Of a stretch of 64,000 bases of DNA, positions 1,461 through 60,233 are shown piece after piece. A program made the translations under genes and the position numbers. Under the pieces are notes generated by a model that was not told where the DNA came from, searched no databases, and was given only the letters and a program-made list of their open reading frames with translations. Every line of letters begins with the position of its first letter. Position 1 is the stretch's first letter. Source of the stretch: Microlunatus sp. Gsoil 973 (GTDB taxonomy: Bacteria > Actinomycetota > Actinomycetes > Propionibacteriales > Propionibacteriaceae); the NCBI RefSeq assembly GCF_009707365.1, contig NZ_CP046122.1, positions 4,154,001-4,218,000 on the forward strand. Direction: 5' to 3'.

Positions 1461-2432
1461 ATGGAATACGTACGACTGGGAAACACCGGCCTGCAGGTAT
1501 CGCCGATCTGCGCCGGCTGCATGTCCTGGGGTGATCCGAACAAGGGACGTCCCTGGACGCTCACCGAGGACGAGGCACGTCCGCTGATCAAGCAGGCGAT
1601 CGAGGCCGGCGTCAACTTCTTCGACACCGCCAACGTGTACGCCGCCGGCAGCAGCGAGGAGATCACCGGCCGGGCGATGAAGGACTTCGGGAACCGGGAC
1701 AACATCGTTCTGGCCACCAAGGTGCACGGCCGGATGAGCGATGGCCCGAACGGTCAGGGATTGTCCCGCAAGGCGATCCTGCAGGAGATCGACAACTCGT
1801 TGCGTCGGCTGGGCACCGACTACGTCGACCTCTACCAGATCCATCGCTTCGATCCGAACGTGCCCATCGAGGAGACGATGGAGGCCCTGCACGACGTCGT
1901 CACGGCAGGCAAGGCGCGCTACATCGGCGCGTCATCCATGTACGCCTGGCAGTTCAGCAAGGCGCAGTACGTGGCGATGATCAACGGCTGGACCCCGTTC
2001 GTGAGCATGCAGAACCACTACAACCTTCTCGCCCGCGAGGAGGAGCGGGAGATGCTGCCGCTGTGTGAGGATCTCGGAGTCGGCGTGATCCCGTGGAGCC
2101 CACTGGCGAGGGGCCGGTTGACCCGGCCGTGGGAGGAGACCACGAAGCGGTCGGAGACCGACACCTTCGGCCAGAATCTCTACCAGGACAGCGATCGGCA
2201 GATCGTCCAAGCGGTGCTGGACGTGGCGAACGCGCGGGGCGTACCGGCGGCCCAGGTGGCACTGGCGTGGGTCAACTCCAACCCGGTGGTCACCGCACCG
2301 ATCGTCGGAATGAGCAGGCCGCAGCACCTCGCCGACGCCATCGCATCACTCGACCTCGAGCTGACCGATGAGGAGATCACACAGCTGGAGGCGGCGTACA
2401 CCCCGCGCTATCCGGCGGAGCTGCCCCGCTGA
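1461..2432 (+). CDS. Aldo/keto reductase (AKR, NADPH-dependent oxidoreductase)
   Basis: A 323-residue TIM-barrel reductase beginning MEYVRLGNTGLQVSP, the usual opening of the YajO/AKR11-12 type. The active-site Asp/Tyr region (FFDTANVYAAGSSEE) and catalytic Lys/His segment (ATKVHGRM, YQIHRFD) are present, with the C-terminal nucleotide-binding GMSRPQHLADA stretch. It reduces aldehydes or ketones; the natural substrate is unknown. The start was placed at the ATG at 1461 because upstream in-frame sequence reads across the divergent gene. There is no good Shine-Dalgarno sequence, but TAGGTT (1447-1452) ends 8 bases before the ATG, a possible leaderless promoter. It is followed by the family A repeat array. 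Confidence 0.93.
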   Translation: MEYVRLGNTGLQVSPICAGCMSWGDPNKGRPWTLTEDEARPLIKQAIEAGVNFFDTANVYAAGSSEEITGRAMKDFGNRDNIVLATKVHGRMSDGPNGQGLSRKAILQEIDNSLRRLGTDYVDLYQIHRFDPNVPIEETMEALHDVVTAGKARYIGASSMYAWQFSKAQYVAMINGWTPFVSMQNHYNLLAREEEREMLPLCEDLGVGVIPWSPLARGRLTRPWEETTKRSETDTFGQNLYQDSDRQIVQAVLDVANARGVPAAQVALAWVNSNPVVTAPIVGMSRPQHLADAIASLDLELTDEEITQLEAAYTPRYPAELPR

Positions 2433-2464: not shown

Positions 2465-2990
2465 GGTCGGTCCCGCACCGGTAACTCGGTCCCGCACCGG
2501 CAACTCGGTCCCGCACCGGCAGCTCGGTCCCGCACTGGCTGCAACGGGTGCGGGGTCGAGCAAGCGGTGCGGCGCCGAGCAGGTGGTGCGCGGTTGAGCA
2601 AGCGGTGCGGTGCGGGTCGGTAAGGGACGGTCCGTACGGGCGGTCGGTCCCGCACCGGCAACTCAGTCCCGCACCGGCAGCTCGGTCCCGCACCGGCTGC
2701 AACGGGTGCGCGGTCGAGCAAGCGGTGCGGCGCCGAGCAGGTAGTGCGCGGTTGAGCAAGCGGTGCGGGAGCGGTCGGTAGGCGGTCCGTACGGGGCGGT
2801 CGGTCGGTCGGTCCCGCACCGGTAACTCGGTCCCGCACCGGCAGCTCGGTCCCGCACCGGCTGCAACGGGTGCGCGGTCGAGCAAGCGGTGCGGCACCGA
2901 GCAGGTGGTGCGCGGTCGAGTAAGTGGTGCGACGCGGACCACGTGGTGCGCGATCGAGTATCCGGTGCGGGAACGGTGGTGCGGCCTCGA
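2465..2990. repeat. Tandem phased dyad array, repeat family A (three units)
   Basis: This fills the 616-bp gap between the AKR and MBL genes. Three units begin at 2465, 2642 and 2806. Each has CCGCACC boxes at exact 19-bp steps on the left and GGTGCGG boxes at 19-bp steps on the right, mirror-symmetric about a 10-bp centre. In unit 1 left boxes start at 2473, 2492, 2511 and 2530, right boxes at 2547, 2566, 2585 and 2604. In unit 2 left boxes start at 2650, 2669 and 2688, right boxes at 2705, 2724, 2743 (degenerate) and 2762. In unit 3 left boxes start at 2814, 2833 and 2852, right boxes at 2869, 2888, 2907, 2926, 2945 and 2964. Each unit could form a long hairpin or cruciform. Long open frames crossing it are by-products of the periodic sequence. 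Confidence 0.9.
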
Positions 2991-3048
2991 TCACCCGGTC
3001 TCGCGCCCGGTTCTCGCGCCGGTCTGGCGCCCGGTCTCACAACTGGTC

Positions 3049-3735
3049 TCACACGTTGTCGCGCTCGGCGCCGATCGTTGTGTCCGGTCCATGTCCGGTC
3101 TTCACCACGGTCGCGTCGGGCAGCGTGAGCAGCTTGGTCCGGATTGACTCCAGGATCTGGTCGTGATCGGAGAAGCTGCGTCCGGTCGCCCCGGGACCGC
3201 CCTCGAAGAGGGTGTCGCCGGTGAAGACCACCCCCGCCGGGTAGCCCGGGAACTCCTCGGCGTAGAAGCACACCGAACCCGGCGTGTGCCCGGGTGTGTG
3301 GATCACGCGAAGATCAACGTCGGCGATCGGGATCACTTGGTGATCATGCAGGCTGCCGGACGGTGGCGCCCGGTGGGTGAGTCGCCACACCGGGAGATCG
3401 TCCGGGTGCAACAACACCCGGGCATCCGTGGCCAGGCCGAGATCCGGCGCGTACCGTACGTGATCATCGTGGCCGTGGGTGCACAGGATGGCGATCACCC
3501 TCCGGTTCGCGATCACCTCGAGGATCTCGGTGACGTCGTGAGGCGCGTCGATCACCACGCATTCGGCATCGTCGCCGACGACCCAGATGTTGTTCTCGAC
3601 GTCGAACGTCTGCCCGTCCAGGGTGAAGGTGCCACTGGCGACCGCATGATCGATTCGGGCATCGCCGTGCGGGCCGAAGTCGGGATCCTCGTCAGATTCC
3701 GACTCGACCTCGAACTCGGCATCCCACTCGCTCAT
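3049..3735 (-). CDS. MBL-fold metallo-hydrolase, partner of mycothiol-dependent formaldehyde dehydrogenase
   Basis: A 228-residue metallo-beta-lactamase-fold hydrolase. The zinc motif HxHxDH is seen as THGHDDH (His87, His89, Asp91, His92), with further ligands in [15 protein letters not shown] and KTGHGPDT. The N-terminus is unusually acidic (about 25 residues rich in Glu and Asp). It resembles glyoxalase-II-type enzymes. Its ATG overlaps the stop of the mycothiol dehydrogenase gene (ATGA, 3732-3735), as the homologous pair is arranged in mycobacteria. By that context it probably hydrolyses the S-formylmycothiol or a related thioester made by its neighbour. The function is inferred; the fold is clear. 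The stop lies at the edge of the repeat-rich stretch. Confidence 0.88.
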
Positions 3736-32314: not shown

Positions 32315-32700
32315 AAGGTCAAAGTTCGACGGTGGGGTTGTCGCCGTCGGCGTGTCGGAGCCGTTGGGTCAACCCTTGATCTTCGGTGTTGGGGGACGGG
32401 GTCTCCTCTTCGTACGAAGGTCAAAGTTCGACCGTGGGGTTGACGCCGTCGGCGTGTCGGAGCCGTTGGGTCAACCCTTGATCTTCGGGGTTGGGGTCGG
32501 CCGAGTCTCCTCTTCGTACGAAGGTCAAAGTTCGACCGTCGGGTTGTCGGCGTCGGCGTGTCGGAGCCGTTGGGTCAAACCTTGATCTTCGAGGTTGGGG
32601 GGCGGGCCGAGTCTCCTCTTCGTACGAAGGTCAAAGTTCGACCGTGGGGTTTTCGGCGTCGGCGTGTCGGAGCCGCTGGGTCAAACTTTGATCTTCGGGG
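32315..32700. repeat. Tandem palindromic repeats, family B (four units)
   Basis: Four units start at 32315, 32417, 32521 and 32627 (periods 102, 104 and 106 bp). Each runs from GGTCAAAGTTCGACC through a conserved core CGTCGGCGTGTCGGAGCCG to a right arm near GGTCAAACTTTGATC. The arms are inverted copies, so each unit can form a stem-loop. The fourth unit has the best-matched arms; in the first two the right arm has drifted to GGTCAACCCTTGATC. Units 2-4 are preceded by the palindrome TTCGTACGAA. The fourth unit overlaps the 3' end of the vanW-like gene. The same family recurs at 58.2-58.5 kb. Confidence 0.9.
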
Positions 32701-34315: not shown

Positions 34316-35437
34316 ATGACCAATGGCGTACGCAAAGTGGCGGTGCTCGGCGCGGGCATGATCGGCGAAGTACACCGGCGGGCGGCTGTCCTGGCCGGTG
34401 CCGAGGTGGTCGGGGTGATGGCGTCGACTCCGGAGCGGTCCCAGGAGGTCGCCGCGCAGTGGGGCGTTGCGAAGGCGTACGGGACCATCGACGAGGTGGT
34501 CGCCGATGATCTTGATGTGGTGCACATCTGCACTCCCAACGCCTCCCATGTGCCCTATGCGGTGGCCGCCCTCGAGGCCGGCAAGCATGTCGTCTGTGAG
34601 AAGCCGCTGGGCGTCAGCCTGGCCGACGCCCAGCACGCCGCCGAGGTGGCCGAACGCACCGGGTTGATCAACACCATGCCCTTCGCCTACCGCTTCCATC
34701 CGATGGCCCGCGAGATGCGTGCTCGCGTGCAGGACGGCGGATTCGGGGCGCCCAACCTGATCCACGGCAGCTATCTGCAGGACTGGCTGCTCGACCCGCG
34801 AGCCAGCAGCTGGCGGGTCGATCCGCAGGCCGGTGGCCCGTCGCGCGCCTTCGGCGACATCGGCTCACACTGGTGCGACCTTGCCGAGTGGGTCACCGCC
34901 GAACGGATCACCGAGGTCGTCGCCGACACCTCGATCGCCATCAAGCAGCGTCCCGCCGCGACCGCTGCATCGTTCAGTGCGGCACCGACCGATGCGCCGC
35001 TGGCCGACGTCACCACCGAGGACAGCGCGCTGATCCTGTTCCGCACCGATCGGGGCACCTCGGGATCGGCAGTGATCAGCCAACTCGCGGCCGGCCGCAA
35101 GAACCGACTGTGGTTGGAGGTGGACGGCGCGTCCCACAGCGCCGTCTTCGACCAGGAACATGCCGAGGAACTCTGGATCGGCGGCGAGGACCAATCCCTG
35201 CTGCTGGTCCGCGACCCGAATCACGGTGCGAGCGAACAGCGCAGGCTCTCCCACCTGCCGGCCGGTCACGCCCAGGGCTATGCGCAGTGCTTCGAGAACT
35301 TCGTCGCCGACACCTACGCCGCCATCGACGGCGAGGCGCCCGAGGGGCTGCCGACCTTCGCCGACGGCCTCCGGGCAGCGCAGATCTGCGATGCCATGCT
35401 GCGTTCGGCCGAGTCCCGCAAGTGGGAGACGGTCTGA
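34316..35437 (+). CDS. Gfo/Idh/MocA-family NAD(P)-dependent oxidoreductase
   Basis: A 373-residue sugar-type dehydrogenase. The Rossmann motif is VAVLGAGMIGEVHRRAA, followed by the signature CEKPLGVS, with the Lys of EKP as a catalytic residue, and a C-terminal alpha/beta domain with a possible active-site His in DIGSHWCDLAEWV. The substrate is likely a sugar or inositol derivative; it cannot be read from the sequence. Its stop codon is directly followed by the family A palindrome. Confidence 0.93.
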   Translation: MTNGVRKVAVLGAGMIGEVHRRAAVLAGAEVVGVMASTPERSQEVAAQWGVAKAYGTIDEVVADDLDVVHICTPNASHVPYAVAALEAGKHVVCEKPLGVSLADAQHAAEVAERTGLINTMPFAYRFHPMAREMRARVQDGGFGAPNLIHGSYLQDWLLDPRASSWRVDPQAGGPSRAFGDIGSHWCDLAEWVTAERITEVVADTSIAIKQRPAATAASFSAAPTDAPLADVTTEDSALILFRTDRGTSGSAVISQLAAGRKNRLWLEVDGASHSAVFDQEHAEELWIGGEDQSLLLVRDPNHGASEQRRLSHLPAGHAQGYAQCFENFVADTYAAIDGEAPEGLPTFADGLRAAQICDAMLRSAESRKWETV

Positions 35438-35521
35438 CCCCACCTCCCGCACCAGCCGCTGCACGCCGCACCGTGTGCACACGGTGCGGCGTGCAGCAAG
35501 TGGTGCGGGTGTGAGGTGGGG
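35438..35521. repeat. Family A phased dyad, single copy, covering the ribosome binding site of mpg
   Basis: A perfect 40-bp palindrome lies at 35458-35497. Outside it CCGCACCA (35447-35454) pairs with TGGTGCGG (35501-35508), and CCCCACCTC (35438-35446) pairs with GAGGTGGGG (35513-35521). Box starts are CCGCACC at 35447 and 35466, and GGTGCGG at 35483 and 35502: the same 19-bp step and 10-bp centre as in the array at 2.5 kb. The right outer arm contains the Shine-Dalgarno sequence of the glycosylase gene and the left arm its complement. It may also serve as a terminator for the upstream gene. Confidence 0.9.
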
Positions 35522-57998: not shown

Positions 57999-58154
57999 CG
58001 GTATGTACTCCTTGGGTTCGTACGAACTCGGACCGGGCTCGCGGCCAACCTAACCGAACGCGTTGACCCGCCGCTAATGCCGGACCCACTACCCCTCGAA
58101 CCAGGTGACGACCCATCCGTACGTGTCAAGAACCTCCCAGGCCCCTCGCCGACC

Positions 58155-58231
58155 TCCCGTCTCGCCCGTTCGCGACCCCCTCGTCTCGCCCGGTTCGCGA
58201 ACCCCTCGTCTCGCCCGGTTCGCGGACCCCC
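58155..58231. repeat. Short tandem repeat, ~25 bp, three copies
   Basis: GTCTCGCCC followed by a GTTCGCG-type palindromic segment starts at 58159, 58183 and 58208. A related GTTCGCGAAC palindrome also precedes each family B unit downstream. The surrounding 597-bp gap (57999-58595) contains no gene. Confidence 0.75.
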
Positions 58232-58245
58232 GCGGTCTCGCGAAC

Positions 58246-58487: not shown

Positions 58488-58545
58488 CGGCCAGGGGACC
58501 CCCCGGCCAGGGACCCCCGGCCAGAGACCCCCGGCCAGGGACCTC
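58488..58545. repeat. Minisatellite, 14-16 bp, four copies
   Basis: CGGCCAG followed by GGGACCCCC-type sequence starts at 58488, 58504, 58518 and 58532. It directly follows the second family B unit and ends about 50 bp before argS. Confidence 0.75.
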
Positions 58546-58595
58546 CCGCCCGGTGGCGGAATCGGGTGGCCGGCGGGTGAGATACTTGGTGCATC

Positions 58596-60233
58596 ATGTC
58601 CTCCCTTCAGCAGACGCTCAGCGCCCGGATCCAGGCGGTCACCGGGATAGATCCCGAGCTGCGGCCGGCCACCAAACCCCAGTTCGGCCATTTCCAGTCC
58701 AACGTTGCGTTGCGTCTGGCCAAGCAGGAGGGCAAACCGCCGCGCGAGGTGGCGAGCGCGATCATCGACCGGCTGGAGCTGGCCGACATCGCCGAACCGC
58801 CCGAACTCGCCGGCCCCGGTTTCATCAACCTGCGGCTCAAGGCCGAGACCTTGGCATCCGCCGCATCGGAACAACTCGTCGACGATCGGGTCGGCGTGGC
58901 GCAGACCGACGACCCGAAGGTCGTGGTGATCGACTACTCCGCACCCAATGTGGCCAAGCAGATGCACGTCGGCCACCTGCGGTCGACGATCATCGGCGAC
59001 AGTCTCAATCGGGTGCTGACCGTGCTGGGACACACGGTCATCCCGCAGAACCACATCGGCGACTGGGGAACCCAGTTCGGCCTGCTCGTCGAGGAGATCC
59101 TGGCAGAGGGCATCGACCCGATGGCCCTGGATCTGGTCTCGGCAGAGGACCTTTACCGGCGGGCCTCGGAGCGCTTCAAGACCGATGAGGAGTTCGCCCG
59201 CCTGGCCCGCAAGCGGGTCGTGCTGCTGCAGTCCGGCGACGAAAAGACTCTGGCCATCTGGCGGCAGCTGATCGAGATCTCCAAGGCGGCCTTCAACGCC
59301 GTCTATGCGCGGCTGGGCGTCAGACTCAACGATGATCATCTTGCCGGGGAGTCCAGCTACAACGACGATCTGGCCAAGGTCGTCCAGGAGTTGGAGAACA
59401 ACGGCACCGCGGTGATCGACCAGGGCGCCCTCTGTGTCTTCGTCGAGGGCTTCAACGCGCCCATGATCATCCGGAAGTCCGACGGTGGCTACGGCTATTC
59501 CACCACCGATCTCGCCGCCATCCGTCACCGCGTCCAGGACCTGCATGCGGATCGGATCATCTACGTCGTCGGCGCCGAGCAGTCCTTCCACTTCGATCAG
59601 GTCTTCGCGGTCGCCACAAAGGCCGGCTTCCTGCCGCCCGGCGTCTCGGCTGAACACGTACGCTACGGGCTGGTCCTGGGCGAGGGCGGCAAGCGGCTCC
59701 GCACCCGGGAAGGCGGGACGATGAAGCTCGTCGACCTGCTGGATGCGGCGGAAGAGAAGGCGGCACCCGCTGTGGCCCTCGCGGCGATCAAGTACGCCGA
59801 CCTGTCCAGCGGTCTCAACAAGGACTATGTCTTCGACATCGACCGGATGGTGGCGACCACCGGCAACACCGGACCGTACCTGCAGTACGCCCATGCCCGC
59901 ACCCATCAGGTGCTTCGCAAGGCCGAGGCAGAAGGCATCGCCCTACCGGAGAAGATCACCGTGCTGGACGAGCCGGCCGAGCAGGCGCTCGCCCTGCTGC
60001 TTCCTCGCCTCGGCGAGGTCGTCGAGGAGGTCGCGCAAACGCTCCAACCGCATCGGCTCTGCGGTTACCTGCATGACGTTGCGGTGGCGTACTCGACCTT
60101 CTACGAGCAGTGCCCCGTGCTCAGGTCCGAGGGTGACGTACGCGCCTCCCGGCTCGCGCTCTGCCTGGCAACCCAGCGGGTGCTGGCCACCGGCCTGGAC
60201 CTCCTCGGCATCCAGGCGCCCGACCGAATGTGA
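58596..60233 (+). CDS. argS: Arginyl-tRNA synthetase
   Basis: A 545-residue class Ia synthetase charging tRNA-Arg. Seen: an N-terminal additional domain, the HIGH-type motif HVGHLRSTIIGD after DYSAPNVAKQM, and the KMSK-equivalent GGKRLRTREGG, the usual ArgRS variant. The C-terminal DALR anticodon-binding domain ends LDLLGIQAPDRM with the Arg/Met ending typical of ArgRS. GATACT lies 9 bases before the ATG; no clear Shine-Dalgarno is seen. It is convergent with ppgK. Confidence 0.97.
   Translation: MSSLQQTLSARIQAVTGIDPELRPATKPQFGHFQSNVALRLAKQEGKPPREVASAIIDRLELADIAEPPELAGPGFINLRLKAETLASAASEQLVDDRVGVAQTDDPKVVVIDYSAPNVAKQMHVGHLRSTIIGDSLNRVLTVLGHTVIPQNHIGDWGTQFGLLVEEILAEGIDPMALDLVSAEDLYRRASERFKTDEEFARLARKRVVLLQSGDEKTLAIWRQLIEISKAAFNAVYARLGVRLNDDHLAGESSYNDDLAKVVQELENNGTAVIDQGALCVFVEGFNAPMIIRKSDGGYGYSTTDLAAIRHRVQDLHADRIIYVVGAEQSFHFDQVFAVATKAGFLPPGVSAEHVRYGLVLGEGGKRLRTREGGTMKLVDLLDAAEEKAAPAVALAAIKYADLSSGLNKDYVFDIDRMVATTGNTGPYLQYAHARTHQVLRKAEAEGIALPEKITVLDEPAEQALALLLPRLGEVVEEVAQTLQPHRLCGYLHDVAVAYSTFYEQCPVLRSEGDVRASRLALCLATQRVLATGLDLLGIQAPDRM

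Follow-up and report, generated by a model that had tools for sequence, protein, structure and literature searches.

A gene-less palindromic array in Microlunatus sp. Gsoil 973 as a probable member of a repeat–endonuclease system with a 19-bp ruler

What would place three tandem palindromes, built of short boxes set exactly 19 bp apart, in the gap between two convergent genes of Microlunatus sp. Gsoil 973? The array lies at 2467..2990 (no strand assigned, as for all arrays below) of the window, by which we mean the entire 64,000-nucleotide stretch analysed here (contig NZ_CP046122.1, positions 4,154,001 to 4,218,000), and its units fill that gap. We consider it probable that the array is a gene-less, non-coding member of a repeat–endonuclease system, whose rows of boxes would be bound, cut and copied by a cognate protein. 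On balance, we also favour the broader proposal that this is a second, independently evolved system resembling repetitive extragenic palindromes (REPs), in which a large actinobacterial family of AbiEi-like/Vsr-like endonucleases reads private boxes on a 19–20 bp ruler and spreads them as mirror arrays, with protein and box drifting together between paralogues.

The geometry of the array is regular. Unit 1 (2473..2610) has four CCGCACC boxes, the fourth ending in T (2473, 2492, 2511 and 2530), a 10-bp centre, GGCTGCAACG, and four GGTGCG boxes continued by G or C (2547, 2566, 2585 and 2604). The same centre separates three left boxes (2650, 2669 and 2688) from four right ones (2705, 2724, 2743, with one mismatch, and 2762) in unit 2 (2650..2768), and three left boxes (2814, 2833 and 2852) from six right ones (2869, 2888, 2907, 2926, 2945 and 2964) in unit 3 (2814..2970); a few boxes of the array depart by one mismatch. 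A previous sequence-only reading of the locus had reported these box positions, with a 19-bp step and a 10-bp centre in every unit and inner pairs summing to 5083, 5399 and 5727, all of which we recovered. Units 2 and 3 carry extra boxes on the right arm, so the mirror symmetry that it described applies to the pairs that exist. Tandem Repeats Finder (TRF) describes the entire array as 2.8 copies of a 164-bp period with 91% matches, and of 20 window matches to a 14-bp box-plus-linker pattern (at most one mismatch), 19 fall inside the array, against an expectation of 2.6 matches from shuffles. Three tandem units that are about 91% alike could suggest ordinary tandem duplication or an assembly artefact, an explanation to which we give next to no credence: the same lattice turns up at tens of loci, also with different boxes and in different genera, which refutes it and upholds the earlier view that the array is no random duplication.

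That recurrence is already evident in the organism's own 4.91-Mb genome, where CCGCACC-n12-CCGCACC has 166 matches over both strands against 1 for the reversed control, and CCGCACC followed after 46–48 nucleotides by GGTGCGG has 49 against 0. A 464-kb sample was made up of the window and 20 stretches of 20 kb at even intervals, the even stretches alone being unbiased. Of its 240 same-orientation box pairs no more than 120 bp apart, 142 are spaced by a multiple of 19, and 138 of the 155 facing pairs are at 16+19n; in the same sample neither outward-facing pairs nor the reversed box give peaks of these types. The arrays of this genome are not due to chance. Nearly all (52 of 53) of those in the examined stretches are intergenic, with gene starts and gaps taken from a simple purpose-made gene caller and with the stretches other than the even 20 selected for holding arrays. 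The sequence-only reading would have been refuted by a lack of further copies and of excess 19-bp spacing; both the copies and the excess were found.

Linkers divide these arrays into two families. In type A, a 62-bp palindrome, the linker core is TGCA and the centre mostly GTGTAC or GTACAC; type B, whose linker core is TCG and whose centre is CTGCAG or CTGCAA, builds multi-box arrays such as the one in the window. The window also holds a type A element (35447..35508), a 62-bp palindrome of the form CCGCACC-n12-CCGCACC-GTGTGCACAC-GGTGCGG-n12-GGTGCGG, about 10 bp past the stop of a plus-strand gene at 34337-35437.

Comparing the genes next to arrays led to a gene of about 300 amino acids that lies between arrays in the own genome, in relatives G006 and G003, in Tsukamurella ocularis and in Pseudonocardia, and a Williamsia homologue has boxes in both flanks. 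The own genome has two close copies, gene a (4662279-4663187, plus strand) and gene b (3464726-3465607, minus strand), together with a distant third match. Gene a is flanked by type A units only (three of three), and gene b by 11 units, every one of the other kind and with a CTGCAG centre. We therefore assign the window array to gene b, about 0.69 Mb away; judged from sequence, the window's type A element is cognate to gene a and its type B array is not.

The proteins of genes a and b, of about 302 amino acids, combine a part resembling the AbiEi antitoxin with a C-terminal domain whose predicted fold aligns with I-Bth0305I and Vsr, at an identity of only 10–16% to those structures. E191, D223, E234, D236 and K240 are invariant in 26 of 26 aligned members and lie at putative nuclease positions. 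The Vsr/EDxHD superfamily has canonical active-site histidines. All 26 members match the AbiEi models of PADLOC; a single odd NCBIfam match appeared in one of them, a PDB sequence search with members returned none, and their Pfam matches include no transposase domain. Of 148 genomes sampled from the class, 110 contain homologues.

Those PADLOC matches, and the kinship of the C-terminal fold with restriction-type nucleases, would fit a defence role, in which an orphan restriction-like nuclease is accompanied by arrays that act as decoys or self-marks. We regard this as improbable. A PF08843 search found no AbiEii in the own genome (methylases and other partners were not searched), which removes the AbiEi/AbiEii defence pair from consideration there; AbiEii is present in 7 of 20 genus genomes, away from the listed homologues. 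Viral contigs hold no four-box CGCACC pattern (quad), which likewise led us to reject carriage by phage.

The homologues also share an upstream feature. In the 200 bp ahead of the gene, 40 of 48 homologues carry TTRTCCACAG with no more than one mismatch, often near −60 and twice over in 12 of them, whereas the site is present at 6 of 301 control genes and in none of 48 downstream flanks; in a second set the counts are 10 of 27 homologues and 5 of 373 controls. These sites, which we take to be DnaA-box-like, suggest that expression may be coupled to replication. They lie, as TTGTCCACAG sites, between array and start codon, for example at −88 and −60 from the start in one homologue (L267).

The box follows the gene, and the ruler is kept. 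Among homologues of the genus, 27 of 30 loci were used (three short or truncated ones were left out), and in 23 of these 27 a word shared by both flanks recurs on a lattice of step 19 or 20, two of the words (the CGCGCG of L277 and L287) being of low complexity; other steps scored 0 to 3. Control genes came from the own genome, where real CGCACC arrays exist, and gave 12 of 235 at step 19, none at 20 and 0–4 at other steps. About a dozen boxes are in use in the genus, including CCGCACC, GAGGCACC, CTCGCTTC, GGCACACC, CCGCGAC, GCGGCAG, CCGCGCC and TTCACACC, among others. We had predicted that a lattice would be found where its cognate gene lies, and this was the outcome for GGCACAC, with 37 lattice matches in genome G014, the one genome with the cognate gene, and 1 across the other 19 genus genomes. 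Similarly, the GAGGCAC lattice occurs 6 times in G003 and twice in G010, beside a decayed homologue, and in none of 18 others. Five dispersed arrays of G014 have two or three left and two to four right boxes at step 19, and four of the five are in convergent gaps. In two loci, L374 of G012 and L375 of G010, the endonuclease-like gene has decayed with boxes still alongside, and arrays thus seem to outlive the gene.

The association extends beyond the genus. All 24 named genomes with CGCACC quads have homologues, against the class background of 110 of 148; among the 30 listed homologues that had loci in these 24 genomes, step 19 was found in 11, step 20 in 6 and step 15 in 4, and 10 of the 30 have at least two GGTGCG boxes on each side. 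At class level, 20 of 29 examined loci were readable, the other nine being dropped because their open reading frame was missed by the motif; 6 of these 20 have the lattice and 15 have an inverted word of at least 15 nucleotides common to both flanks, found in 0 of 237 and 4 of 252 controls. Three class-level relatives (L302, L303 and L305) are homologous gene cassettes with long inverted repeats and outer ends of the AATGATCATGTT type. L303 and L305 lie behind similar gene ends, while the inner palindromes differ, and it is possible that protein and repeat have drifted together there at one site.

The site of the window array itself tells a related story. Upstream is an aldo/keto reductase-like (AKR) gene (1461..2432, plus strand), whose 3′ end is 41 bp from the first exact CGCACC box; downstream is a metallo-beta-lactamase-fold hydrolase-like (MBL) gene (3049..3735, minus strand), with its 3′ end towards the array, both being named by eye from sequence. 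AKR and MBL genes are adjacent in the own genome (G000), G011, G003, G017 and G014, in a comparison of 17 genomes with MBL loci. The AKR–MBL gap of G003, G014 and G017 holds an endonuclease-like gene; the three genes form one clade (98/98), with CGCACC boxes in G003, GTCTGC boxes in G014 and G017, and 19-bp steps in each. The gap in G011 has neither gene nor lattice; type B arrays occupy the own gap, in which tblastn detected no remnant of the gene. The site thus holds gene, arrays only, or neither, and no precise insertion was seen. A flank test was negative: insertion into terminator loops, hinted at by a few G011 flanks, was rejected by shuffling in all six sets.

Other repeats occur nearby and elsewhere in the window. 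Repeats of 12 bp (CCCGGTCTCGCG) at 2991-3050 adjoin the array, between it and the MBL gene; a 106-bp tandem repeat at 32315-32700 (3.7 copies, 92% matches) has a consensus unlike the boxes; and 25-bp and 14-bp tandem repeats at 58146-58241 and 58488-58548 lie in the gap ahead of a gene at 58596.

Across 84,980 species genomes, the CGCACC quad was found in 70 stretches, all in actinomycete-named records, which include Tsukamurella, Arthrobacter, Paenarthrobacter, Pseudonocardia, Nocardia, Microlunatus endophyticus, Rhodococcus rhodnii, Williamsia, Naasia and metagenome-assembled genomes (MAGs). The quad is present in 8 of 198 genomes of the family, among them the own genome, and the six quads of G012 are letter-identical to those of M. 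endophyticus. By eye, 19-bp and 22-bp steps alternate in Paenarthrobacter and Arthrobacter loci (L142, L130 and L118), and Tsukamurella loci L115 and L139 have box pairs facing outward across a 10-bp gap. In orthologous Tsukamurella arrays, box positions are identical at 244 of 246 and the remainder at 301 of 458, in 8 non-redundant pairs at 4 sites that are not all independent (22 pairs were listed, some with overlapping loci); array detection relied on exact boxes and scoring was limited to those of the first sequence, which favours conserved boxes. The earlier reading that selection acts on boxes and spacing and not on linkers is strongly supported by these arrays.

The sequence-only reading had allowed for either protein binding to DNA or a structured RNA. 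An RNA origin would make the arrays hairpins or bidirectional terminators, kept by selection on RNA and with boxes unread by any protein; the palindromes do sit at 3′ ends, and the arms co-vary in G011 and G006 (0 of 1,000 shuffles reach the observed value), in one Arthrobacter group, Nocardia and a Mycobacteriaceae MAG (0 of 300 each) and, weakly, in the own type A (15 of 1,000). The arms of own type B and of Tsukamurella are less complementary than shuffled ones (990 of 1,000 and 299 of 300 shuffles reach the observed value), and there is no excess in the other Arthrobacter group (272 of 300) or in Pseudonocardia (112 of 300), so that a structured RNA is not upheld for the family of the window array and arm co-variation had to be dropped as a general rule. 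Since co-variation is confined to some sets, box and phase are the common constraint and pairing is family-specific. Selection on RNA would also leave the exact 19-bp phasing and the gene-specific boxes unexplained. No array in 17 loci matched a known family at the Rfam gathering level, and microRNA matches in the window were weak and far below cut-off. We therefore hold an RNA explanation to be very improbable. The reading that a protein binds the arrays is, by contrast, strongly supported by the box that ties each array family to one endonuclease-like gene.

A further question is whether the host, and not the repeat, is served. The AbiEi-like protein could be a resident DNA-binding factor that rarely or never uses its nuclease, with arrays as roadblock terminators or chromosome-organising sites. 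Position argues for this: of 27 type A elements, 22 are no more than 60 bp from a gene 3′ end (19% by random placement) and 2 are in divergent gaps (44% by random placement), and 71 of 92 arrays in six other groups are within 60 bp of a 3′ end (baseline 16–28%). Boxes conserved over linkers and cassettes stable at one place fit as well. Against it stand the nuclease-like residues invariant in 26 of 26 members, the weaker 3′ attachment of type B (9 of 25 within 60 bp, 6 of 25 in divergent gaps) and a turnover of boxes among related proteins that would be unusual in a host regulon. We consider this a serious, if rather unlikely, alternative.

The repeat–endonuclease reading, in which we infer protein binding, cleavage and mobility, can be put as a mechanism. 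The N-terminal AbiEi-like part would bind the boxes as a row of subunits at 19-bp spacing, and two such rows would meet at the 10-bp centre; this draws on the box following the gene, the constant ruler and the conservation of boxes over linkers. The endonuclease-like domain may then nick or cut at the palindrome, and repair would copy arrays, and rarely the gene cassette, into new intergenic sites, mostly just behind genes, as the fold, the dispersal and the gene-less arrays suggest. The window array would then be one of the gene-less members, placed where relatives hold the gene. Host use of arrays as terminators or roadblocks is possible alongside this mechanism. If the broader proposal is true, box turnover would serve as a readable specificity code, and if the pairing holds, it accounts for dispersed palindromic repeats in Actinomycetes and offers dozens of natural protein–box pairs for learning DNA specificity. 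With homologues in 110 of 148 class genomes and AbiEi matches in all 26 members, a widespread family may sit under toxin–antitoxin by default.

How does this compare with known systems? The earlier statement that no known repeat class has this geometry agrees with our search of open-licence literature, in which none of the papers listed was recognised as describing the arrays or their link to the gene, although this does not prove absence; the logic of the system does resemble that of REPs and REP-associated tyrosine transposases (RAYTs). Unlike CRISPR arrays, which have long identical direct repeats with unique spacers, these are mirror palindromes made up of short boxes and of 12-bp linkers that are conserved in part (cas genes were not searched). 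The cassettes with long inverted repeats in L302, L303 and L305 recall miniature inverted-repeat transposable elements and insertion sequences, but neither target duplication nor empty site was seen, nor a transposase domain among the Pfam matches of the 26 members. In its predicted structure the C-terminal domain shares the fold of Vsr/EDxHD endonucleases, yet unlike homing endonucleases of the I-Bth0305I type, the gene lies between palindromic arrays in intergenic gaps, and no intron was seen. With the type IV toxin–antitoxin system AbiE (PMC3985639), the protein shares an AbiEi-like antitoxin fold; it differs in having no detected AbiEii toxin in the own genome, an extra C-terminal endonuclease-like domain and arrays on both flanks.

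There is also the likeness to REP and RAYT. REP hairpins have a conserved GTAG-type tetranucleotide at the foot, and in RAYT systems the gene is flanked by cognate repeats that outnumber it. Our system likewise has a protein gene that lies between cognate palindromes, which outnumber it and are found dispersed as well, and dispersed extragenic palindromes are common ground with REP/BIME and RAYT (PMC2817692). It departs from REPs in its 19-bp multi-box lattice, 10-bp centre and box varying from gene to gene, and from RAYTs in its AbiEi-like and Vsr-like protein: the Y1 (HUH) transposase domain Y1_Tnp (PF01797) was found in none of 20 genus genomes by a search that was positive in 5 of 14 control genomes, and a RAYT was rejected on that ground. 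Because it appears to work like REP/RAYT without a RAYT domain, and no known system matches it as a whole, we regard the repeat–protein pairing as new; if it holds, it offers a case in which to test whether REP-like systems have evolved twice, from unrelated enzymes.
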